Source: a virus
Virus record (IMG/VR): IMGVR_UViG_3300045051_000031
Coordinates: 1 to 29,669 of that record
Direction: 5' to 3' (one strand)
DNA: 29,669 nucleotides
The position numbers were made by a program, and so were the translations under genes. This document shows, piece by piece, positions 2,669-27,403 of the stretch. A model generated the notes under the pieces. That model was not told the DNA's origin. It saw only the letters and a program-made list of their open reading frames with translations, and made no database searches. Numbering within the stretch: the stretch's first letter is position 1; every line of letters begins with the position of its first letter.

Positions 2669-2827
2669 CTAAAATAAACAATTGCCAACTAATTCAAACG
2701 CTGTTGGCTTGCGTTTTATTGGCATACGGCTAATTGACCAACCTGACTGTAAAAACGCAACAGATTCAGATTTGGTGGCAAATAACCGTATTGCCAAACC
2801 ATCTTCATCAATTACCTTGTATTTCAT
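2669..2827 (-). CDS. 52-aa protein of unknown function
   Basis: This ORF starts at 2827 with an ATGA overlap on the upstream gene and ends 8 nt before the chosen Sak3-like start. Its 52 residues are basic, with an MKYKVIDEDG start, a FATKSESVAFLQSGWSISRM middle and a KRKP patch. I recognise no family. The tight coupling and the absence of any other gene here support it as real. Confidence 0.6.
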   Translation of the reverse strand: MKYKVIDEDGLAIRLFATKSESVAFLQSGWSISRMPIKRKPTAFELVGNCLF

Positions 2828-3099
2828 CCGTAAATCAGGTCGTGTAATGAATCCATTTCAGCAGTACATAAGTTACGCATGATGCGTAAAATGGTTTCGT
2901 TATCGTTGTTAATGAACGCTGTTAGCAATTCACCGCTATATTGATAAACCTTATCGCCAAGGTCATTTGATTCAAACGGTGTGATGCTGAATTGATTGCG
3001 TACACCGTATGTCATGCGTTCTTGTTTAACAATTGCATCTTCAAGAAATTGGCGTTCTTCTTCCCATGTCAACGGGTCATCATAATGGTCACGCATCAT
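2824..3099 (-). CDS. hypothetical acidic protein (91 aa)
   Basis: The product begins MMRDHYDDPLTWEEERQF and contains a mainly helical body with many acidic residues. No family is recognised. I place the start at 3099, not at the upstream in-frame ATG (3150). The 3099 ATG has an AGGGGG ribosome binding site and forms an ATGA overlap with the 29-aa membrane peptide, whose reading frame occupies the upstream extension. The second ATG at 3096 is also possible. Confidence 0.6.
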   Translation of the reverse strand: MMRDHYDDPLTWEEERQFLEDAIVKQERMTYGVRNQFSITPFESNDLGDKVYQYSGELLTAFINNDNETILRIMRNLCTAEMDSLHDLIYG

Positions 3100-3185
3100 A
3101 AACCCCCTGTACGGATAACCCAAACTGTTAATGGGATAACAAAGAAACAAATACCTAGAAATACGCCTTTAAGAATGTCAGTCAT
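3096..3185 (-). CDS. 29-aa membrane micropeptide
   Basis: This ORF starts at 3185 behind AAGGGGCTAATC and encodes 29 residues: MTDILKG, then one hydrophobic helix (VFLGICFFVIPLTVWVI), then RTGGL. Its stop overlaps the next start as ATGA. It looks like a single-pass inner-membrane peptide. Function is unknown. The ribosome binding site and coupling are the evidence that it is expressed. Confidence 0.55.
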   Translation of the reverse strand: MTDILKGVFLGICFFVIPLTVWVIRTGGL

Positions 3186-5790: not shown

Positions 5791-6240
5791 TTATTTTGTT
5801 GGAATTTTGTTTTGCAAATTGTAAAACACTTCTTCAGGTGATACAAATGCTTCAGCGTTATATTCCACAAAATCCCACCAAAGAAACTGATTCTTAGCTA
5901 AGTAACTGCGGTCTTTTAAAAGGTTGATATTTTCAGGGTGTCCGTAAATGTTAGGGTCTGATACTGACCATAAAACAATACCTTTTTTGCCCCTTGACCA
6001 TCCAAAGTGTTGCATAAAGCTGTCGCATGAAATCCATGTACGGCAGTCATCAATTAGCTTGCCCAACTCATTCAAACTTAGATTCTTGCGGAAATCATCA
6101 ACCAACTGTTCTTCACCGTCAATGCCTACCTGCACAATAGGTTCATCAATCAAACCAATCAATTCTTTCCAATAAGGGTAATTCTTTGGGTTGCGGTTAC
6201 CGTTGACTAATTTTTTAGAATACGGGCTAATTAGAATCAT
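5791..6240 (-). CDS. GT9 (heptosyltransferase)-like C-terminal domain protein
   Basis: This 149-residue protein carries the pattern of the C-terminal, nucleotide-sugar-binding half of GT9 heptosyltransferases. It has a predicted helix LNELGKLIDDCRTWISCDSF, then H78 in SFMQHFGW, then KGIVLWSVSDP and NIYGHPEN, matching the family's D-S-xxx-H and (F/W)G-x-(T/S)DP stretches. The N-terminal acceptor domain is absent but seems present as the tail of the upstream protein; the genes overlap as ATGA. The two chains may assemble into one transferase acting on phage structural protein or on host surface glycan. The family call is a motif-level inference. Confidence 0.55.
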   Translation of the reverse strand: MILISPYSKKLVNGNRNPKNYPYWKELIGLIDEPIVQVGIDGEEQLVDDFRKNLSLNELGKLIDDCRTWISCDSFMQHFGWSRGKKGIVLWSVSDPNIYGHPENINLLKDRSYLAKNQFLWWDFVEYNAEAFVSPEEVFYNLQNKIPTK

Positions 6241-7790
6241 AAGTACATCTTTCTAAATGCGTTTGCCAAACTGTCTTTCCAATCCCATTCAATCATCTTT
6301 TTATATATGTTGAACTGTTCAATATCGCCAAACAACGCTTGTGCTTCCGCAATAGGTCTGCATGGGATGATTTCAGGATAGCAACCAAACACTTCAGCGT
6401 TTTCTATTTCAGGCAATATCTTGCTAAACACAACATGGTCACCCATCCCACAATTCAACACAACAATCTTCTTGCTTTTAAAGTTAATAACATTTCTAAA
6501 TATCTGTTCATCTCGTTCATACAGTTGTGCATTGGTTTCACTTCTTATGCCACCCTGCGGATTTTTTAAATGCCATGTAATTGCATTAGGTACAACAAAC
6601 AACTTATAACCTTTTAAATGCAATCCGTATGAAAAAAGTGTTTCTTCACGATGGGCAACCCTTGATAAACCAAGGTTGTAATCATGTACCCCTGCACGGT
6701 ATAGGAATGAACAATACAAATGTTCTACCTGCTTTTTGTCTTTGATTAGCCCCCATTGAATATTAGGTTCAATCTCAATGTTTGTTATTAATCCTGATGA
6801 ATTTAGATATTGTGTGTTTAGCGGTGGCGTTATAACTGAACTACCAATTGCCCCAACATCATCAGCAGTATGACTTGCCAATATTTCTAATACATTTGGT
6901 TCAGGTATTGCATCATCGTCAACACGCCAAACCCAATCGTAACCTGATGTGTTTGCTAACTGATGTATGTGATGCTGACCTTTTTTACCTGCAAATACCC
7001 ATTCCCATCTAATACCTTTTACATCAAGAATATGGAATAAATGTTGATACAAAAAGTCTTTACGCAAATCTTCAGGTTCATCATTGTCATCAAATATAAC
7101 TAACTTATCAGGCAACCTTGTTTGATTCAGAATGGCTTGTACAACCATTGGCAATGTAGAATGGTATCTGCCCCGTGTTGCAACTGAACACAATATGGTT
7201 TCTTTTTTATCCCACTTGCAAATCATTAAGTTTGCAGGATTGCTTTCTGAAACGGGCATCATTGAATCTGTAATGTGACCGTGCATATTGATGTAATTAA
7301 AATCAAATGACGGGAAGTTTGATTCATTTAAACCATGCAGTTTATGATGTTCACCCCAAAAGCCTTTAGGTTCATTGTGCGGTACTGTGATTAATAAACG
7401 CTTGCAATGCTTCTTCAACTTTTCAACAATTTCCAAACCATTATCTAAATGTTCAATCACTTCAAACGCAATGATTGTGTCGTATTGTTCTAACGGAAAA
7501 GTGTTAATGTCTGCGTGAAAAAACTTGGCATCATCACGCCAATTTTGCAATTTAGCAATATCAATAATTTTGGAATCGTAATCAATCCCTGTGTAATCAA
7601 TATTTCTAGGTAAGAATTGAATACCGTAACCTGATGAACAGCCAATTTCTAATATCTTGTTGCCCAAAACATTTTGGTTTGCCCATTGATAACGGGTTGT
7701 TTCCCTAGCGTGTACATTGTCACCCTTTAGAAAAACAGCCCGTTCATAGTTGTTGGTTAATTCATATATATATTTTTCGTATTCTGTCAT
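6237..7790 (-). CDS. methyltransferase-GT2 glycosyltransferase fusion with GT9-like tail
   Basis: This 517-residue protein has three parts. Residues about 35-150 are a class I SAM methyltransferase (motif I LEIGCSSGYG at 47-56, D70 in GIDYD, then FEVIEHL). Residues about 197-410 are a GT-A fold, GT2-like glycosyltransferase (LCSVATRGR start; the metal-binding DDD at 291-293 in WRVDDDAIP; a HREE motif near 380). Residues about 440-517 (KIVVLNCGMGDHVVFSKILPEI) resemble the first Rossmann half of a GT9 enzyme. Placement after the fibre gene suggests it modifies the fibre or the host glycan. Substrates cannot be read from the sequence. Confidence 0.75.
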   Translation of the reverse strand: MTEYEKYIYELTNNYERAVFLKGDNVHARETTRYQWANQNVLGNKILEIGCSSGYGIQFLPRNIDYTGIDYDSKIIDIAKLQNWRDDAKFFHADINTFPLEQYDTIIAFEVIEHLDNGLEIVEKLKKHCKRLLITVPHNEPKGFWGEHHKLHGLNESNFPSFDFNYINMHGHITDSMMPVSESNPANLMICKWDKKETILCSVATRGRYHSTLPMVVQAILNQTRLPDKLVIFDDNDEPEDLRKDFLYQHLFHILDVKGIRWEWVFAGKKGQHHIHQLANTSGYDWVWRVDDDAIPEPNVLEILASHTADDVGAIGSSVITPPLNTQYLNSSGLITNIEIEPNIQWGLIKDKKQVEHLYCSFLYRAGVHDYNLGLSRVAHREETLFSYGLHLKGYKLFVVPNAITWHLKNPQGGIRSETNAQLYERDEQIFRNVINFKSKKIVVLNCGMGDHVVFSKILPEIENAEVFGCYPEIIPCRPIAEAQALFGDIEQFNIYKKMIEWDWKDSLANAFRKMYL

Positions 7791-7803: not shown

Positions 7804-10077
7804 TTATGTTCTTGGATATACTAACTCCACTCTTGTACCACTTGCCAAACCTGTTGCAAATACAACTTGTGTACCGCTTGTTGTAGTTACATCACCGCCT
7901 GCACCTGAAACCATTTCAACACCGTTGCAGAATACCATTATTTTACCTGATACATAGCTAACACTTGTTGTAAATGTTGTCTGTGATGCAGTTGCAGTAA
8001 ATGAATCAAACACCATGCTTGTTGCATTACCGCTATAACCACTAAAGCCACTTGTGCCTGAAGCACCAACCGCACCGCTAAAACCTGAATAGCCTGAATA
8101 TCCGCTAATTCCTGAAGCACCGTTTGTACCATTAGTGCCTGAGAATCCGCTTATTCCGCTAAATCCTGAAATGCCACTAAATCCTGAGTAACCACTAATG
8201 CCACTAAATCCTGAATAGCCTGATATTCCTGAACCTGAGTAACCGCTAATACCGCTAAATCCTGATTGACCGCTAAATCCTGAAATGCCACTAAAACCTG
8301 AATATCCTGATGTGCCTGAATATCCTGATTGTGTGTACATTACTTGTGAAATGTTAGCAATAACTGATGGTGTTAAAGGTACGCCATCATAGGCAGGGAT
8401 TGTTTCCAATGAAACTTGTGTGCTGTCAGTAGTCCAATACAATTCAACATAATCATTTGGATTTACTGATACACCAATAAAATCAACTGTTGCAACAGCA
8501 TAACCATAATCACCTGCATCTTTACGGGCAGGAATAAAGAATCTTGTGTTGCTGTCAGGATAATTTGAACCGTTATATTTCAACCAAATATCTGCATAAT
8601 GAATTGCATTATCAGTATTAACAAGTTGAATTGAATAAGTTAGTTTGTATGTACCTGTGTTTGCAATAACAATTCTTGAACCGCTTGAAATGCTAATGCC
8701 TGTCGCTGATGATGTGCTGTTAATATTAACTGCTTGCGGTGTAACTGAACCTGTTTGGTCGGTTGTATCAAAGAATGAACCGTAATTACCAATTGCCCCA
8801 CCTGCACCTACCGCACCACTATATCCGCTAAATCCACTAATACCTGAAGCACCGCTAAATCCTGAAATTCCGCTATAACCGCTTGCACCACTAAAACCTG
8901 AAAAACCGCTTATGCCACTTCCTGAATAGCCTGAATAACCCGATGTACCTGATGCACCATTAACGCCTGAATATCCGCTAAAGCCTGATGTGCCACTAAA
9001 ACCTGATTGACCATTTTGACCTGAGATACCACTAAAACCTGAATAGCCTGAAATTCCACTAAATCCACTAGCCCCTGATGCACCGCTAAACCCTGAGATT
9101 CCTGAGTAACCTGAGAATCCGCTAACGCCTGAACCTGAATATCCTGAGAATCCACTTATGCCTGAATAACCTGAAAATCCGCTTGTGCCTGATTGACCAT
9201 CTAAACCACTAAAACCGCTTATACCTGAAGCACCTGATATTCCTGATGCACCGCTATAACCGCTAATGCCTGACCAACCACTAAAGCCTGAAATGCCTGA
9301 GTATCCGCTTATGCCTGAATAGCCTGAGAATCCGCTTAAACCGCTTGCCCCTGATGCACCAACAATTTGTCCTGCATCAAACCATGCTGAACCATTCCAA
9401 ACCCATAGGTTGCCATCTTCAGTAACAATATACGCATCATTAACCTGATTACCTGTTGGTGGCAAATCACCAACTGTTGCAACCTCACCTTTAATGGTGA
9501 TGCTTGTACCTTGTTGACCGCTATAACCACTAAAGCCTGAGTAACCGCTTATACCTGAACCTGAGTATCCGCTAAAGCCTGACTGACCGCTAAAGCCTGA
9601 AATACCACTAAAGCCTGAGATTCCTGAGTATCCTGAAATACCACTAAATCCTGATGTGCCACTAAATCCTGAAATACCTGAAAATCCGCTTGCACCGCTA
9701 AAACCTGATTCGCCAACTGCACCGCTATATCCTGAGATACCTGAATAACCTGAGAATCCGCTTGTGCCAATACCTGAGTATCCGCTATATCCGCTTGTGC
9801 CTGATACACCGCTAAAACCTGAAATGCCTGACCAACCACTAAAACCTGAAATCCCACTAAATCCTGAGTAACCTGATTGACCGCTATAACCTGATAAACC
9901 TGATGTGCCAACACCTGTCGCACCTGAGTAACCTGAATATCCGCTAAAGCCTGAATATCCTGATGTGCCACTAGCACCACCAACGCCACGGTTTACTTGA
10001 ATTGTTTGTCGTGCCTGTGGCACAACTTCAACATTAATATTATTTCCGTCTGTAACGGTAACATTTAGATTTGCCAT
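7804..10077 (-). CDS. collagen-like tail fibre with C1q/TNF-like domain
   Basis: This 757-residue protein is a probable trimeric fibre. Residues 1-33 are an N-terminal anchor. Gly-X-Ser triplets fill about 34-187, 241-427 and 584-683. An insert at 188-240 (GEVATVGDLPPTGNQVNDAY, then LWVWNGSAWFDAG) resembles small β modules of tail fibres. Residues 428-583 form a β-rich jelly-roll-like region of the C1q/TNF type (RIVIANTGTYKLTYSIQL, then ADIWLKYNG). Residues 686-757 form a β domain also present in the tip protein. The triplets lack proline and place F, Y, I, T or A at X, with G-x-G breaks such as YSGSGISG. It likely serves host adhesion. Confidence 0.8.
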   Translation of the reverse strand: MANLNVTVTDGNNINVEVVPQARQTIQVNRGVGGASGTSGYSGFSGYSGYSGATGVGTSGLSGYSGQSGYSGFSGISGFSGWSGISGFSGVSGTSGYSGYSGIGTSGFSGYSGISGYSGAVGESGFSGASGFSGISGFSGTSGFSGISGYSGISGFSGISGFSGQSGFSGYSGSGISGYSGFSGYSGQQGTSITIKGEVATVGDLPPTGNQVNDAYIVTEDGNLWVWNGSAWFDAGQIVGASGASGLSGFSGYSGISGYSGISGFSGWSGISGYSGASGISGASGISGFSGLDGQSGTSGFSGYSGISGFSGYSGSGVSGFSGYSGISGFSGASGASGFSGISGYSGFSGISGQNGQSGFSGTSGFSGYSGVNGASGTSGYSGYSGSGISGFSGFSGASGYSGISGFSGASGISGFSGYSGAVGAGGAIGNYGSFFDTTDQTGSVTPQAVNINSTSSATGISISSGSRIVIANTGTYKLTYSIQLVNTDNAIHYADIWLKYNGSNYPDSNTRFFIPARKDAGDYGYAVATVDFIGVSVNPNDYVELYWTTDSTQVSLETIPAYDGVPLTPSVIANISQVMYTQSGYSGTSGYSGFSGISGFSGQSGFSGISGYSGSGISGYSGFSGISGYSGFSGISGFSGISGFSGTNGTNGASGISGYSGYSGFSGAVGASGTSGFSGYSGNATSMVFDSFTATASQTTFTTSVSYVSGKIMVFCNGVEMVSGAGGDVTTTSGTQVVFATGLASGTRVELVYPRT
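8029..8328 (-). repeat. collagen-triplet repeat block 3
   Basis: A degenerate 9-bp periodic DNA block encodes Gly-X-Ser triplets (GFSGYSGISG style). Third-position changes keep most copies non-identical. It lies between the jelly-roll-like domain and the C-terminal domain of the fibre. Confidence 0.85.
8797..9357 (-). repeat. collagen-triplet repeat block 2
   Basis: This is the longest of the three Gly-X-Ser blocks, about 187 residues. It contains three of the odd interruptions: GYSGSGVSG, GYSGSGISG and NGQSG or DGQSG steps where serine at the third place is replaced. Confidence 0.85.
9517..9978 (-). repeat. collagen-triplet repeat block 1
   Basis: This is the first Gly-X-Ser block after the N-terminal anchor, about 154 residues. 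Interruptions TGVGTSG and SGIGTSG drop one residue from the triplet register. Confidence 0.85.
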
Positions 10078-21018: not shown

Positions 21019-21359
21019 ACTGTCGTTTCAGGGTCATTTCTGTAACACAATAATGTGATTTTCATGCGGTCATTGCTTTCACGCACATCCGTCACACGCC
21101 AATTATTGCCACGCCAAGTAATGCTGTATTCGTTTTGATGGTCAACTATACGCTTAATGTTAGGCGTATAGTTAAAAGTCAAATTAACCAAGTCTTGATA
21201 AACACGGTATTTTTCAGAAATCCTTACCGCATTTGATACATCATGAACCAATGCCCTTGATGTAAACAAAGGCGTTTCAGTCGTTGTGTACTCGCCAAAA
21301 GTATCAACCCCGTTGGTTACTTCATTAATTGTTGTATTTTCGTATCTAACGATGCCCAT
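21015..21359 (-). CDS. head-tail joining protein (head closure type)
   Basis: This is a 114-residue β-barrel-like protein with FTSRALVHDVSNAVRISEKY, VYQDLVNLTFNYTPNIKRIV and ITWRGNNWRVTDVRESNDRM, ending in a short ITLLCYRND strand. The WRGNNWRVTDV...R...I-T-L-L pattern matches SPP1 gp16-like / phage head-tail joining proteins, which plug the connector after packaging. It is coupled to both neighbours. Confidence 0.8.
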   Translation of the reverse strand: MGIVRYENTTINEVTNGVDTFGEYTTTETPLFTSRALVHDVSNAVRISEKYRVYQDLVNLTFNYTPNIKRIVDHQNEYSITWRGNNWRVTDVRESNDRMKITLLCYRNDPETTV

Positions 21360-22024
21360 TACATCACCAATGGTTTATATGGTCTAAGCAATTGGGCAAC
21401 GCCAAACGGTATTTCGTGCATGATGCGTTCATTACTGTTTGAACGATTGTTATACAAATGTGTTAATAGCAACAAACCTGCCTGTTGAATTACAGGGTAG
21501 TTTGCCAACGGTGAACGGGCTGTTGTGTACTCAACTACCAACGGATTAGAAACCTGCGTACTAATCGTTGACGGCATTGAATTTAAGATAATCTTGTTGC
21601 CTGTTGAATCGTACTGATAACTTGATGATGCCAAAGTTTGCAATACTGACGGAATATCACCATTCCAAAACTTAACGGAATTGATAGTTACGCCAACTTG
21701 ACCTGTTTGATTCTGCGTTGTTTCAGGCAAATCCAAAGTTAATGCCGTGCCTGCAACAGCAGGGTTGCCATAAAACACACGGTATTGCGTTGGGAATATT
21801 GCCATTCCCAAATAATCTTCAATTGCCATGCGTGTCGCAATTTCTAACCCTTGCAGGTAGGCATCTTGGCTTTCATCTTCAAACAGGTTTAACTGATTGG
21901 TGATTTGGTCAAGTGTCAACCATGCCGTTACAAAATCCCTGCCAATTTGTTCAACCTTTTCATAGTTGAACGGATTGCGGTTTTGTGTAAGGTTTGGGGC
22001 AATACCTAAATAATCGCTTGCCAT
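21359..22024 (-). CDS. head-tail connector protein (gp6-like)
   Basis: This 221-residue protein has an N-terminal helical part with AWLTLDQITNQLNLFEDESQ and EIATRMAIEDYLGMAIFPTQ. It continues through a β-rich middle (LDLPETTQNQTGQVGVTINS, PLVVEYTTARS) to a final helix (IQQAGLLLLTHLYNNRS). This is the usual layout of HK97 gp6-like connectors (the phiE125 gp8 type), which form a ring under the portal. It lies where expected, between capsid and head-closure genes. Confidence 0.8.
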   Translation of the reverse strand: MASDYLGIAPNLTQNRNPFNYEKVEQIGRDFVTAWLTLDQITNQLNLFEDESQDAYLQGLEIATRMAIEDYLGMAIFPTQYRVFYGNPAVAGTALTLDLPETTQNQTGQVGVTINSVKFWNGDIPSVLQTLASSSYQYDSTGNKIILNSMPSTISTQVSNPLVVEYTTARSPLANYPVIQQAGLLLLTHLYNNRSNSNERIMHEIPFGVAQLLRPYKPLVM

Positions 22025-22038
22025 GATTTAACCTTTAA

Positions 22039-23082
22039 TTAAGCAACACCAACTAAACGCACACCTGCAAATACATCACGAATTGTTGAACATACACGCT
22101 TTTCAGCATAGAAAGTAATGAAACCAACTGATGTTTGTTCAGTCAATTTAATTGACATTTCTTCATTGTCAGCGATAGTAAAGAATCTGTCCCACTCACC
22201 AAGATAAACAGGATACTTACCGTTGCCTGCAACATCCATGTAAGGGTTTGGAATAACACGGTGACCAAAGATATAAATTACCGCACCGCCATCTTCGCTA
22301 CCAACTTCCAAGAAGTTATTGGCTGTTGTTGATGCCTTTAGTTTACGCAACGCCTGAATTGTGCTTGGGTGCATCATCCATGATGTTGTTTCTTTGTATA
22401 AATACTGTGATGGCAAAGCACCTTGCAAATTAGCCAAGTCATCATAAGTAACTGCTGTTGCTGATGCTTGCTGTACTTGCAATACTGTGTGCAAACCGTT
22501 AGTAATGGCTGAACCGCTTGTACCAAATGATGCTGATGATGTAGAACCTGCATAGCTATTTAAACCACGCAAACCACTTGTTGCACCATAGTTAACAGTT
22601 GTTGAACCTGATTGGTCATTGTTAAACATCATTGACAATGCTTCTTGTTGGGCAAATTCCAACATCAAATCTTCGGCAATTGTTTCTTCAAGATAGTTAA
22701 TATCTGACAACACGGCTGTTCTTACGGGTACGCTTGCATTGATACAGCGTACAGGTAATTGCCAAAATGATGTTGCAATATTTGGTGAACCTGTATTGTT
22801 ATTGATTGGATAGCCCCACGGGTTGTTTGAACCGTTTTCAATTAGTGTGGCGTTACCTGTTTTAACAACAAACGCTTCGTCTGAACCGCTTGTAATAATC
22901 TTTCGTGCAACATCTCGCAATGGGTTATGTTCACGCTTTGATGCAAACGCATCGTCATAAATAACACGCCCACCAACACCGCTACCTGAACCTGTTAGTG
23001 CTGATGCTTCATTTAAATTAACTTTTGCTTCGCCTTCAACTAAAGCAGTTTTAACGGCTTCAAGAATTGGATTGGTTTTCAT
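22039..23082 (-). CDS. second major capsid-like protein (HK97 fold), no delta domain
   Basis: This 347-residue paralog of the upstream capsid protein shares EASALTG-x-G-x-GxGGR, P-x-RTA-x-L-x-DI, EF-x-Q-x-EALSM-x-x-NNDQ, LRGLN-x-Y and the end VGFITF-x-x-EKR. It has only about 24 residues before the EASALTG motif, against about 103 in the other, so the coiled-coil scaffold part is missing. It may build pentamers, decorate or replace part of the shell, or be a duplicate with a new role. I use the ATG at 23082 (GGAAATAAAC site), not that at 23094. It follows a terminator. Confidence 0.8.
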   Translation of the reverse strand: MKTNPILEAVKTALVEGEAKVNLNEASALTGSGSGVGGRVIYDDAFASKREHNPLRDVARKIITSGSDEAFVVKTGNATLIENGSNNPWGYPINNNTGSPNIATSFWQLPVRCINASVPVRTAVLSDINYLEETIAEDLMLEFAQQEALSMMFNNDQSGSTTVNYGATSGLRGLNSYAGSTSSASFGTSGSAITNGLHTVLQVQQASATAVTYDDLANLQGALPSQYLYKETTSWMMHPSTIQALRKLKASTTANNFLEVGSEDGGAVIYIFGHRVIPNPYMDVAGNGKYPVYLGEWDRFFTIADNEEMSIKLTEQTSVGFITFYAEKRVCSTIRDVFAGVRLVGVA

Positions 23083-23102
23083 GTTTATTTCCATAATAAG
23101 TT

Positions 23103-23131
23103 GTAAAAAAGGTGGGGGCTGTTAACCCCCA
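23103..23131 (-). terminator. Rho-independent terminator between the two capsid genes
   Basis: On the minus strand, TGGGGG-TTAACAG-CCCCCA forms a 6-bp stem followed by CC and six T. It starts about 10 nt after the stop of the first capsid gene. No promoter matching the three left-end copies is seen between it and the second capsid gene, so the second gene would depend on read-through. Confidence 0.8.
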
Positions 23132-23138
23132 TCCTTAA

Positions 23139-24467
23139 TTAAGCACCTGTTGCAGTAGAACGATAACGAACTAATGCAAATGGGTCAACAACTGATGTTG
23201 CCAAACGCTTTTCACCAAAGAATGTGATGAAACCAACTTGTGTTTGGTCATATCTGCGAAGAACCATATTTAGACGGTCAACGATTGCGTGGCAACGATT
23301 CCAATCACCAAAGTACATTGGATATTGGCTGTTTGTGCCTGCCTGTGAACCTGCTGAAGTTGGGTTTTCCAAATACTTGTTAACCACAACATCAAAGCCT
23401 AGCAATGAACCAACAATACCGTCTGTGCGTGATAAACCGTCAACATAGATTGGTCTGCCTTGGTCATCAGTCAAACCACGGATTGCTTGAAGCATCAATG
23501 GGCTAACCATGAACTTTGCAGTTGGTGTCCAATATTCTTGTGGCAAGCTGTAAATAAAGTTAACCACATCTTCGTACTGAACATTGTTTGCTGAACCAAA
23601 ACCGTTTGTAGTGATTTGGTCATAAGTTGCAATGCTATGTAAACCTGATGAAGAACCTGTGCCTGAAGAACCAAATGCAGAAGCACTTACTGTACCGCCT
23701 GTGTATGTGCTGTTAGCACCGCCATACTGATTCAAACCACGCAAACCGTTTGTGCCACCGTATGTATTTGGTGAATCTGTTTGGTCGTTGTTTTGAATCA
23801 TTGATAGTGCTTCAGCTTGACTGAATTCAACCATCATGTCATCAACCACATTGGCTTCCAAACCATCAATGTCATCCAATGATGCTGTACGGATTGGGAA
23901 AGCACAGTTAAGGTCTTGCAATGTCAACTGCCAAATGTTCATGTTTTCAGTTGTTGCATTACCGTTGTTTTGGATTGCATAACCCCATGAAGCACCTGCG
24001 TTACCAACCTTAGCACGGAATTGATAAGTTGCACCATCAGTTGCAACAGAACGGCTTAAACCACGCATAGGGTTAGCCAAACGCAAAGCATGGAATACAG
24101 GGTCATAAGCTGTTCTACCACCGATACCTGCACCGCCACCTGTCAATGCTGATGCTTCAGTCATGTACGCTTGATATTGTGCTTCATCAGCAAATACTTT
24201 TAATTCTTTTTGAACTTTAGAATCTGACTTGATGTAATCACGCAATGATTCACGAACCATACGGTTCACATCGCCACGAACTGTTTTTTCAACCTTGATG
24301 ATTGATGGGGCTTGTACTTCTGATAGTTTAGCTTCAATTGCGTTTAGCTTTTCTGTCAAAGATACTTCAACAGCTTCAGCTTTTGCAAATGCTTCGGCTT
24401 TAACTTCTTCAATCTTAGCAACTTGTTGTGCTTCAATTGAATCTAGTTTTTCAATAACTTCTTTCAT
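23139..24467 (-). CDS. major capsid protein, HK97 fold with N-terminal delta domain
   Basis: This 442-residue protein has an N-terminal coiled-coil region (residues about 1-60, E/K/A-rich) of the delta-domain type used as an internal scaffold. A linker and then the HK97-like shell fold follow (EASALTGGGAGIGGR from 104, VEFSQAEALSMIQNNDQ, KFMVSPLMLQAIRGL, VGFITFFGEKR). The protease encoded just upstream probably removes the N-terminal part near residues 95-105. This would be the main shell subunit. A terminator immediately after it fits high expression. Confidence 0.9.
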   Translation of the reverse strand: MKEVIEKLDSIEAQQVAKIEEVKAEAFAKAEAVEVSLTEKLNAIEAKLSEVQAPSIIKVEKTVRGDVNRMVRESLRDYIKSDSKVQKELKVFADEAQYQAYMTEASALTGGGAGIGGRTAYDPVFHALRLANPMRGLSRSVATDGATYQFRAKVGNAGASWGYAIQNNGNATTENMNIWQLTLQDLNCAFPIRTASLDDIDGLEANVVDDMMVEFSQAEALSMIQNNDQTDSPNTYGGTNGLRGLNQYGGANSTYTGGTVSASAFGSSGTGSSSGLHSIATYDQITTNGFGSANNVQYEDVVNFIYSLPQEYWTPTAKFMVSPLMLQAIRGLTDDQGRPIYVDGLSRTDGIVGSLLGFDVVVNKYLENPTSAGSQAGTNSQYPMYFGDWNRCHAIVDRLNMVLRRYDQTQVGFITFFGEKRLATSVVDPFALVRYRSTATGA

Positions 24468-24477
24468 TTTAGATTCC

Positions 24478-25272
24478 TTATTTAATGCGTTTATTAAGTG
24501 CCTTAGTCAACTCACGCAATTCAATTGCCTTGAGTAATTCTTCAGCTTCGGTTACCACCGCAACAGGTTCACCCTGAATTGGTGTTTCTTCAAGTTTCTT
24601 AGGTGCATCACGCATTTCTAATACTTTCTTGAAAATACTTGATGCGGTGGTCGCATCTTTTTTAGTAACGCCTGCTTCACGCAATTGTTTTTCTAAAACT
24701 CTTGGATTTAATGAACCATCTTCTTCAAAACATGATTCAAGTTTTTGTATTTCTGCATTTGGGTTGTTAGGATACATAACAACTGAAATTTCACGGAATC
24801 CACCTTTAGTAATTTGGAAATAACCGTCATCTTCTTTACCTGCTGTCAATGGCATACCTTCTTTATCAACATAACAGTATTCATCAGCGTATGCACCAAC
24901 AGAAACACCGCCAAACATCATTGGTGATTCTTTTAAAATTTCGTAAAGGTCTGAACCGCCTGCCGTATTCATATACAGCTTGCCTTTTGCAGTCATGCCT
25001 TGTTCATCAAACATGACTTCATCCCATTGACCAACGGGCATACCCATATCATTGTGATTTAAGAACATTGGCATTGGTTTGCCTGAATTGCTGAATTCAT
25101 CAGCCCAATCCATGAAACCTTCAGGTGTGTAGAAAAACTTTCTGCCGTCTGCACCTTCTCTTGCACCCCATGTTGTTGCACGGGCTTCAATTATTCCTGT
25201 TGGGGTTGCAGATTCATCTGCTGTTCTTCCCAACTGTACTTGTGCTTCGCATACTAATGTTAGATTCTTCAT
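24478..25272 (-). CDS. prohead maturation protease (S78 family)
   Basis: This 264-residue protein carries the S78 protease pattern: GIIEARATTWG at the start, H73 in MFLNHND, and S124 in FGGVSVGA. It also has GFREISVVMYPNNPNA, the usual FxEISlVxxPANpxA block. The family cleaves capsid delta domains during prohead maturation. The C-terminal third (residues about 175-264) is charged and helical, resembling a self-processing or scaffold tail. It starts behind a GGGGTAATCA site inside the 3' end of the previous ORF. Confidence 0.9.
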   Translation of the reverse strand: MKNLTLVCEAQVQLGRTADESATPTGIIEARATTWGAREGADGRKFFYTPEGFMDWADEFSNSGKPMPMFLNHNDMGMPVGQWDEVMFDEQGMTAKGKLYMNTAGGSDLYEILKESPMMFGGVSVGAYADEYCYVDKEGMPLTAGKEDDGYFQITKGGFREISVVMYPNNPNAEIQKLESCFEEDGSLNPRVLEKQLREAGVTKKDATTASSIFKKVLEMRDAPKKLEETPIQGEPVAVVTEAEELLKAIELRELTKALNKRIK

Positions 25273-25405
25273 TGATTACCCCAATAGAAATGGCTTGATT
25301 ATCGTCTTTTATCTTGTGGGGTGTAAACCGCTTTTTTGGTAGTTTAACACTAGGGTTCTTAATTTGTGAACCCATAATGTCAAATATTTTATCTATAAAT
25401 GACAT
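25214..25405 (-). CDS. 63-aa ORF overlapping the protease start
   Basis: This is a 63-residue ORF with MSFIDKIFDIMGS and a basic middle (KLPKKRFTPHKIKDDNQ). Its start overlaps the HNH gene stop (TAATG), and its last 59 nt overlap the prohead protease gene in another frame. It fills the gap between HNH and protease, which favours it being translated. No family is recognised, and it may instead be a remnant linked to the HNH insertion. Confidence 0.45.
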   Translation of the reverse strand: MSFIDKIFDIMGSQIKNPSVKLPKKRFTPHKIKDDNQAISIGVINEESNISMRSTSTVGKNSR

Positions 25406-25968
25406 TATTTACCACCATCAACAAAAACGGCTTGCCAAATTTGATGCTTTTTTGGTCTTGCCCCACTCAACCAATTTCTGATTGTATCTCTGCCAACCTT
25501 AAAATGTTGTGATGCAGAATTAATACAATCAAAAGTTACATTGTTAATTTTCACCTGTTTTGATGAAGGATTGTTTTTACCAAAGTTAGAAAAAATGCCT
25601 TTACCGCTTAAATCTTGCATTATATTTTTATGCAATCTTTTAACTTGTTCATTTTTCATGGCATTTAATACACCGCTTCTACCCTTTTTTTTGTTGGTTT
25701 CTGCTGTAAATTTTTTACCTAAATTGGGTTTTATGTTGCCAATCCTTATGCCTTCACATTTGGCTTGATTCATTAACCTGTTAAACGCCCACGCATCAGA
25801 GTAATTTTTATCTAATTTATATCTTACATAGTGTGCAATTGCATGGTCTAAAGGTGATAACAACACTAAATTATCTTTAGAATCATCACCGCCTTTATGT
25901 TTTGGCAAAATATGATGCCAATGATAGCCTTTTAACAAATCGGGTTTTTTACCAATTCGTATTGCCAT
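25405..25968 (-). CDS. HNH homing-type endonuclease with NUMOD-like domain
   Basis: This is a 187-residue basic protein. The HNH core is at residues 15-46: YHWHHILPKHKGG (H16, H18, H19), N33 in DNLVLLSPLDH, H42 and H46. The middle is lysine-rich and NUMOD3-like (GKKFTAETNKKKGRSG). The C-terminus (VTFDCINSASQHFKVGRDTI, RNWLSG) is a NUMOD1-like helix-turn-helix that would read the target site. It lies between portal and protease genes, joined by one-base overlaps on both sides. It is likely a free-standing homing endonuclease, a mobile gene rather than a structural one. Confidence 0.85.
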   Translation of the reverse strand: MAIRIGKKPDLLKGYHWHHILPKHKGGDDSKDNLVLLSPLDHAIAHYVRYKLDKNYSDAWAFNRLMNQAKCEGIRIGNIKPNLGKKFTAETNKKKGRSGVLNAMKNEQVKRLHKNIMQDLSGKGIFSNFGKNNPSSKQVKINNVTFDCINSASQHFKVGRDTIRNWLSGARPKKHQIWQAVFVDGGK

Positions 25969-27374
25969 TATTTGCCAATATTCATTTTTCTAGTTTGATT
26001 ACCGCCACCGCCACCTGTATCGGTTGGGCTTTGACCCTTAATTGCATCACCTTGTGGATTAGATTGTGATTTTGATACTAATTCATCAGCCCCGTTTACT
26101 TGTGCCATACCTAGTAATTCACGGGCTTCGTTAGGCGTAAAGATACCTGCATTAACACCTGCAACAGCAAAATTCATTTGGTCTAACGGTGAACCCTCTA
26201 AGAATTCAGTTGTATCAAACTGAATGTGTAGGCTTGGGTAACCCTTAAACAAATGCTGTTTTAACTTTTGCTGAATGTTTCTAATCATCGGTGACATGGT
26301 TGATTTGTAGAATTCATCAAGCATTGTCTGTGTGTTGTTGTACTTTTGGTCAGAAATGCCAATCATTGCAGGTGGTACGCCAAACACACCGCAAATACGC
26401 TTCATGGTTTGTGTCTTTAACTCTGCTGTTTGGGCATCCTGTAAAGTCAACATATCAACAGGGGTGTATGTCATACCTTGGTCAAGCAACATACCCTGAC
26501 CTGCTTTAGATTGGTCAGTTGTACGCCCACCTGTCATGGCGTTCCATGTTTCTTTCAGGCGTTGGGCAACTTCTTTGTACTTAGCATCAGGAATAACTTG
26601 TGTTGTACTGAAAATACCGCTTGGCTTTGCACCATTCTGCATAACAAAGTTTGCGTACAGGTCAATGTCTTGGTCTAAGCCAACCAATTCTGTTGCCAAA
26701 ATACCTTTGTTAAAACCTGCTGAACCCTGCCATGCCATTTCTTTAATGTGCATAACTTGATAGTTTGCCAATGGTTCATCTTTGCTAAAACCGTATGATG
26801 GGGTTGTCAATCTGTATGACGGATAACGGCTTGGTGTCAATTGAACTGTAATCAATGTGGCATCTAGGTTATACATCTCAATTGGCGTAAGGTTTGCATC
26901 TTTTTGGTCTTTACGCCACCAAAGAGTAAATGTTTCGCCTGCCAAATCTTGCCACATACACCATTGATACCAAAATTCATATTGACTTTGGAAATTGTTT
27001 GGGTTTGTTAGCAGGTTTAATACTTGTTTGGCTTTTGCCTTATCTCTTGCACCAACCGTTGATGATTTAACGGCATCAACATAAGTGCCATCATCTAATT
27101 GATACATTACCTTAATTGGCAGTTGTGCTAATGCACGGGCTTTGGTACTTACACACGCCATTACTGTTGAATTGCGTGATAGCGTTGACATATCAACGGT
27201 ACGCCCTGCGGTGGTAACGCTTGATGTTGTTACATAAAGCAACTGTTGGCTTACTGTTTGTCTGCCACCGTCACCTTGATAAACGACATTGTTACCTAAT
27301 TGGGTCTGACCAAACAGGGTATTAGATTCGTTATTAACGCTTTGTTTCTTACTGAAAATATCTAAAATACCCAT
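25968..27374 (-). CDS. portal protein, HK97 type
   Basis: This 468-residue protein matches HK97-family portals. It has STLSRNSTVMACVSTKARAL (the S-x-V-x-ACV motif), ALAQLPIKVM, and QVLNLLTNPNN followed by a W-rich helix region. Further on are VMHIKEMAWQGSAG and the RICGVFGVPPAMIGISD block typical of the clip/stem region. It forms the dodecameric ring at the packaging vertex. I use the ATG at 27374, which has a GGGGGAAAAC site, instead of the TTG at 27386. The C-terminal tail is glycine- and lysine-rich. Confidence 0.92.
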   Translation of the reverse strand: MGILDIFSKKQSVNNESNTLFGQTQLGNNVVYQGDGGRQTVSQQLLYVTTSSVTTAGRTVDMSTLSRNSTVMACVSTKARALAQLPIKVMYQLDDGTYVDAVKSSTVGARDKAKAKQVLNLLTNPNNFQSQYEFWYQWCMWQDLAGETFTLWWRKDQKDANLTPIEMYNLDATLITVQLTPSRYPSYRLTTPSYGFSKDEPLANYQVMHIKEMAWQGSAGFNKGILATELVGLDQDIDLYANFVMQNGAKPSGIFSTTQVIPDAKYKEVAQRLKETWNAMTGGRTTDQSKAGQGMLLDQGMTYTPVDMLTLQDAQTAELKTQTMKRICGVFGVPPAMIGISDQKYNNTQTMLDEFYKSTMSPMIRNIQQKLKQHLFKGYPSLHIQFDTTEFLEGSPLDQMNFAVAGVNAGIFTPNEARELLGMAQVNGADELVSKSQSNPQGDAIKGQSPTDTGGGGGNQTRKMNIGK

Positions 27375-27403
27375 GTTTTCCCCCAAGTTTTTCTTATTCT
27401 ATA

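Follow-up and report, generated by a model that had tools for sequence, protein, structure and literature searches.

Two paralogous HK97-fold capsid proteins, here termed MCP1 and MCP2, are encoded in tandem by a 29,669-base virus record (the window of our analysis), and we consider the chances about even that they jointly form a two-protein shell in which MCP2 is the minor subunit, most likely residing in the vertex pentamers. The presence of MCP2 in the virion, its copy number, its cleavage and its position are what we infer here from the genes. A two-protein shell is favored by the paralogy of the proteins, the complete predicted fold of MCP2, the retention of the gene pair, purifying selection, the separation of the sequences into two clades and a conserved motif; a role of MCP2 as a minor or vertex subunit is favored by clade-wide loop differences, a hairpin in the intergenic junction and a usually weaker MCP2 ribosome-binding site. 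Nearly all HK97-fold capsids use one flexible protein for pentamers and hexamers alike, with T4 as the accepted viral exception and, according to a 2025 paper, the single virus known to assign different structural roles to two distinct HK97-fold proteins (PMC12407261). A penton protein in a small siphovirus would, if true, place a second viral case beside T4.

The minus strand of the window carries, in this order, genes for the terminase, the portal, an HNH protein, an S78 prohead protease, MCP1, MCP2, a head-tail adaptor and tail proteins. Both capsid genes are intact reading frames arranged head to tail between the protease and the adaptor genes (Table 1).

Table 1. Features of the capsid gene region (positions in the window).
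Feature	Position	Strand	Basis or remark
MCP1, HK97-fold major capsid protein, 442 aa, delta-like N-terminus	23139..24467	-	ORF, PF05065, PHROG
MCP2, second HK97-fold capsid protein, 351-aa ORF	22039..23094	-	likely start 23082
MCP1 delta-like helical pre-sequence, residues 1-103	24159..24467	-	predicted helix; missing in MCP2
MCP1 EASALTGGGAGIGGR motif, residues 104-118, candidate protease site and N-arm start	24114..24158	-	cleavage putative
MCP1 loop, residues 250-257	23697..23720	-	clade-wide absence in MCP2
MCP1 loop, residues 288-293	23589..23606	-	clade-wide absence in MCP2
MCP1 loop, residues 369-375	23343..23363	-	clade-wide absence in MCP2; axial position putative
MCP1/MCP2 junction, GC-rich hairpin then T tract	23113..23131	-	terminator-like or 3'-end-stabilising
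MCP2 EASALTGSGSGVGGR motif, residues 29-43	22966..23010	-	best-conserved MCP2 block
MCP1 ribosome-binding site AAGGA	24475..24479	-
MCP2 ribosome-binding site GGAA	23089..23092	-
Prohead protease, Peptidase_S78 family	24478..25272	-	Pfam-type profile and PHROG matches
Portal protein	25968..27386	-	profile and PHROG matches
Head-tail adaptor	21359..22024	-	PHROG

An earlier note on this DNA, made from its letters alone, had proposed a tandem pair of paralogous HK97-fold capsid genes, and profile searches bear this out. Both proteins match PF05065 (Phage_capsid) over the capsid core well above the curated cut-off of 24.2 bits (MCP1: E 4e-30, 105.6 bits; MCP2: E 2e-23, 83.5 bits), and both match PHROG major head protein families. 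Their mutual alignment spans 359 columns with 37% identity (E 6e-68), so that their paralogy is not a matter of chance similarity, a possibility that this alignment rules out; 69 positions are conserved to at least 85% in the MCP1 clade and in the MCP2 clade as well. Structure prediction, which the earlier note had suggested as a check, yielded a complete HK97 subunit for MCP2 (mean pLDDT 73, pTM 0.73, spine helix at residues 129-157), and in this model the full fold is kept, with none of the core elements trimmed. Its best solved structural match is the RcGTA capsid protein Rcc01687 (Z about 22.8); against HK97 the Z values are 16-18. The same RcGTA protein, which unlike the arrangement proposed here forms all capsomers by itself (PMC7296036), is also the best solved match by sequence for MCP1 and MCP2 alike. 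The MCP1 model was poor (mean pLDDT 53) and was set aside, so that the fold of this protein rests on its sequence.

The gene pair is a clade-wide trait of a lineage of small, mostly freshwater phages. IMG/VR, queried with each of the two proteins and with family alignments, yielded at least hundreds of relatives; among the matches listed, 237 of 248 loci have MCP1 and then MCP2. The 11 exceptions comprise 10 loci cut by contig ends and one in which MCP1 is split into two overlapping frames. These 248 loci are not a count of genomes, because some contigs yielded two of them, and the sample is biased toward close relatives, so that single-copy cousins may exist further out. Removal of identical pairs left 165 full-length MCP1/MCP2 pairs. 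In one locus, the MCP1/MCP2 junction is the exact place where a homing-endonuclease-like gene (L052:4333-4986; phrog_314) has inserted, and MCP2 ends early there. Our search for bacterial hosts or prophages matched two genome contigs only, both from assembled bins, and the search of plasmids gave a single weak partial match.

Of 50,697 phage records, a single one represents a cultured relative, Methylophilaceae phage P19250A (KX815270; host IMCC19250), described as a siphovirus that infects the freshwater LD28 group (PMC8163748). Its complete genome contains just two matches, genes 0005 and 0006, which stand in the same gene order as here and whose products share 62% and 53% identity with MCP1 and MCP2, respectively. 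Gene 0006 is annotated as a hypothetical protein only, and a search of the accessible papers found no mention of a second capsid protein in P19250A; our analysis corrects the annotation of a conserved 'hypothetical' gene such as P19250A_0006.

In a phylogenetic tree, the MCP1 and MCP2 sequences fall into two separate clades of 165 members each, and the duplication hence predates the radiation of the lineage. With a single distant outgroup, the support values (0.67 for the MCP1 clade, 0.98 for the MCP2 clade) leave the rooting weak and the split clear. MCP2 has evolved about 1.6 times faster than MCP1 (total tree lengths 19.1 vs. 11.6), and dN/dS is about 0.17 for MCP1 and about 0.20 for MCP2 (Nei-Gojobori, 624 pairs). 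Both values are low and place both genes under purifying selection; MCP2 is therefore a maintained gene, and its frame is intact across the 165 distinct full-length pairs. Decay of the second gene, which the earlier note had named as an outcome that would contradict it, was thus not what we found: dN/dS and the intact frames rule it out, and the pair has been retained over the long term. A mirror-tree comparison gave no special co-evolution signal for MCP1 and MCP2 (r 0.41, below most of the other head-gene pairs, which range over 0.37-0.78). MCP2 distances track those of the portal and of the protease (r 0.68 each) above those of MCP1. In 98 relatives, the correlations of distance between MCP1 and its neighboring head genes are 0.37-0.54, while most other pairs reach higher values, up to 0.78; the low MCP1 values may point to recombination around this gene.

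The two proteins differ most conspicuously at their N-termini. About 103 residues, with a long helix predicted at residues 2-50 in the low-confidence model, precede an EASALTG motif in MCP1, and about 24 residues (usually 22-26 across relatives) with a short predicted helix precede it in MCP2. Hence, the proposal that only the first protein possesses a delta-like N-terminus holds for the long version of this region, but MCP2 is not devoid of a pre-sequence. MCP2 probably starts at its fifth codon, an ATG at 23082, giving a protein of 347 aa; this start is preferred because a correctly spaced GGAA site precedes it. Where the pre-sequence gives way to the N-arm, both proteins have the sequence EASALTG(G/S)G..(V/I)GGR. 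Although predicted to be disordered in MCP2, the block is the best conserved part of that protein, with a mean entropy of 0.55 bits vs. 1.6 bits for the preceding 24 residues, as one would expect of a recognised peptide. The motif, which both clades conserve where it would be expected, is a candidate site for cleavage by the S78 protease.

About a dozen relatives (L107 at about 2818-3115, L152, L053, L055, L056, L060, L063, L064, L081, L092, L098) carry a domain of roughly 100 residues ahead of MCP2, in frame and with no stop between (..GVARARDI..SYFARHEVDKKG..GYPSAGRIAWALWGGD..). It matches phrog_2859, a family of unknown function, which had 13 matches among the examined loci, all of them fused to MCP2. 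Such a domain would stand in for the delta region that MCP2 is missing.

Further differences between the clades lie in the loops. Three loops are shorter in MCP2 than in MCP1 throughout (medians of 18 vs. 26, 9 vs. 16 and 8 vs. 16 residues), and the MCP2 E-loop exceeds that of MCP1 (28 vs. 24 residues). The last of the shortened loops (MCP1 residues 369-375) we take to be the axial A-loop, an assignment made by comparison with HK97 rather than from a model of the complex. In T4, mutations in the A-domain allow gp23 to form pentamers and thereby to replace gp24 (PMC12407261), and the axial region is therefore where changes in a vertex specialist would be expected.

The junction between the two genes folds into a hairpin of eight pairs, five of them G-C, that is followed by CCTTTTTT. 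The folding energy of the junction, -18.6 kcal/mol (z -3.4), was equaled by none of 200 shuffled sequences. A strong hairpin, defined by at least six pairs of which four are G-C, is present at this place in 156 of 165 pairs, as compared to 8 of 162 cases directly behind MCP2 and 5 of 160 directly ahead of MCP1; among relatives the stem is kept, and loops and closing pairs vary. The ribosome-binding site of MCP1 is nearly always AAGGA across relatives, and that of MCP2 is more often GGAA or none is recognised. Judged from these sequence signals, the junction hairpin and the usually weaker MCP2 site would agree with an excess of MCP1 over MCP2. A promoter scan found fewer sites than in shuffled sequences.

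The terminator that had been postulated between the genes is accordingly represented by a conserved hairpin with a T tract, but its supposed action on the ratio of the two proteins has to be widened. Since MCP2 and the head-tail genes are all located downstream of the hairpin, it would favor MCP1 over every one of them. Burkholderia phage Bcep176, with only one MCP gene, has a comparable hairpin behind that gene, although the whole junction there is not unusual when compared with shuffles (z -0.9); the element is thus not specific to the pair and marks a general break after the major capsid gene. Both facts weaken the notion that the hairpin is a device dedicated to the MCP1:MCP2 ratio. The head operon of Bcep176 otherwise resembles that of the window (portal, protease, MCP, hairpin, adaptor), with a 55-codon gene in the place of MCP2, and phage vB_PstS-pAN likewise has the same gene order, one MCP and a small gene in this position.

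In the course of events that we propose, an ancient duplication of the capsid gene would have led to a two-protein shell in this phage lineage. MCP1, equipped with its own delta-like scaffold and placed ahead of a leaky terminator, would make up the bulk of the shell, namely the hexamers. MCP2, nearly free of a scaffold and made in lower amounts, would co-assemble into the MCP1 procapsid, would probably undergo trimming by the same S78 protease at the EASALTG motif that both proteins share, and would replace MCP1 at special positions. These are most likely the 11 vertices without a portal, whose pentamers it would form as gp24 does in T4. In a T=7 head, which the 38.7-kb genome of P19250A would suggest, such pentamers would amount to about 55 copies of MCP2 next to 360 of MCP1.

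Other roles of MCP2 have to be weighed against a position at the vertices. It might be a virion protein located elsewhere, either mixed with MCP1 within capsomers in a fixed or variable ratio, or forming a ring near the portal; on balance we consider this unlikely. Mixing has a precedent in the two-component Family 2B encapsulin, whose paralogues form irregular mixed shells (PMC12407261), and the core positions conserved in common would permit it, but the clade-wide loop differences suggest distinct capsomer geometries. A portal-proximal ring would suit the adjacency of MCP2 to the head-tail adaptor gene and the closer tracking of portal and protease distances, yet that correlation may merely reflect recombination around MCP1. 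It is less probable still that MCP2 is no stable virion protein and instead serves assembly, as a nucleator or in size control, or builds an encapsulin-like shell of its own or a decoy in the course of infection. MCP2 does lack a long scaffold domain, and encapsulins are found among the structural matches of its model; against this stand the many capsid folds that outrank the encapsulins, the conserved motif resembling a prohead protease site, and the fact that the gene is part of the head operon in every relative that has room for it.

The earlier note had left a minor shell form and a decoration protein side by side, and it is the former to which the complete predicted fold lends itself. MCP2 as a decoration or head-surface protein of capsid-gene origin would follow the MCP gene just where Bcep176 and vB_PstS-pAN have small accessory genes; because it keeps the whole shell-forming fold with untrimmed core elements, we regard this role as very improbable. 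A redundant or decaying copy, to which the longer total tree of MCP2 might have pointed, is refuted by the low dN/dS and the intact frames and retains next to no probability. Counted against the favored reading of a two-protein shell with MCP2 in the pentons are the MCP1/MCP2 correlation of 0.41, the hairpin of Bcep176, the HK97-based loop assignment and the poor MCP1 model.

Like the lineage studied here, T4 keeps two paralogous HK97-fold capsid proteins, gp23 and gp24. Their genes are neighbors, as are those of MCP1 and MCP2. T4 is a large prolate myovirus and the cultured relative P19250A a siphovirus of about 39 kb; the identity between the paralogues is 37% here vs. 17% quoted for gp23/gp24; and in contrast to the T4 pair, MCP2 is without most of the scaffold-like N-terminus and has a putative virion role. 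Changes in the A-domain are implicated in the pentamer role of the T4 proteins (PMC12407261). Profile searches of solved structures with MCP1 and MCP2 matched RcGTA-type capsids and a cf-PICI capsid and no T4 protein, nor did we find a sequence link between MCP2 and gp24. The pair would work like gp23/gp24, and a distant kinship with that family may exist. The Family 2B encapsulin of Streptomyces lydicus (Enc1/Enc2) also combines two HK97-fold paralogues in one shell (PMC12407261), but is a bacterial compartment with irregular mixed pentamers, whereas a phage head is filled with DNA and matured by a protease.

Slightly short of an even chance, in our estimate, is the wider conclusion that a second, dedicated HK97-fold shell protein, probably a penton, arose separately in an unrelated lineage of small siphoviruses; this protein would have lost its scaffold, shortened its axial loops and come to use the scaffold of its sister. 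A search of the accessible papers found no duplicated HK97 capsid genes in other small phages. This lineage and its cultured member would permit direct tests of two questions: which sequence change makes a vertex specialist out of a general capsid subunit, and whether a paralogue is able to use its sister's scaffold.

Elsewhere on the minus strand of the window, the interval between the portal and protease genes (25214..25968) contains an HNH homing-endonuclease-like gene together with a small ORF that overlaps the start of the protease gene. A 757-aa collagen-like repeat protein in which SGFSGxSG units are numerous, and which is probably a tail fibre, is encoded at 7804..10077, and the adjoining gene (6237..7790) specifies a 517-aa protein with parts that appear by eye to be methyltransferase-like and glycosyltransferase-like.
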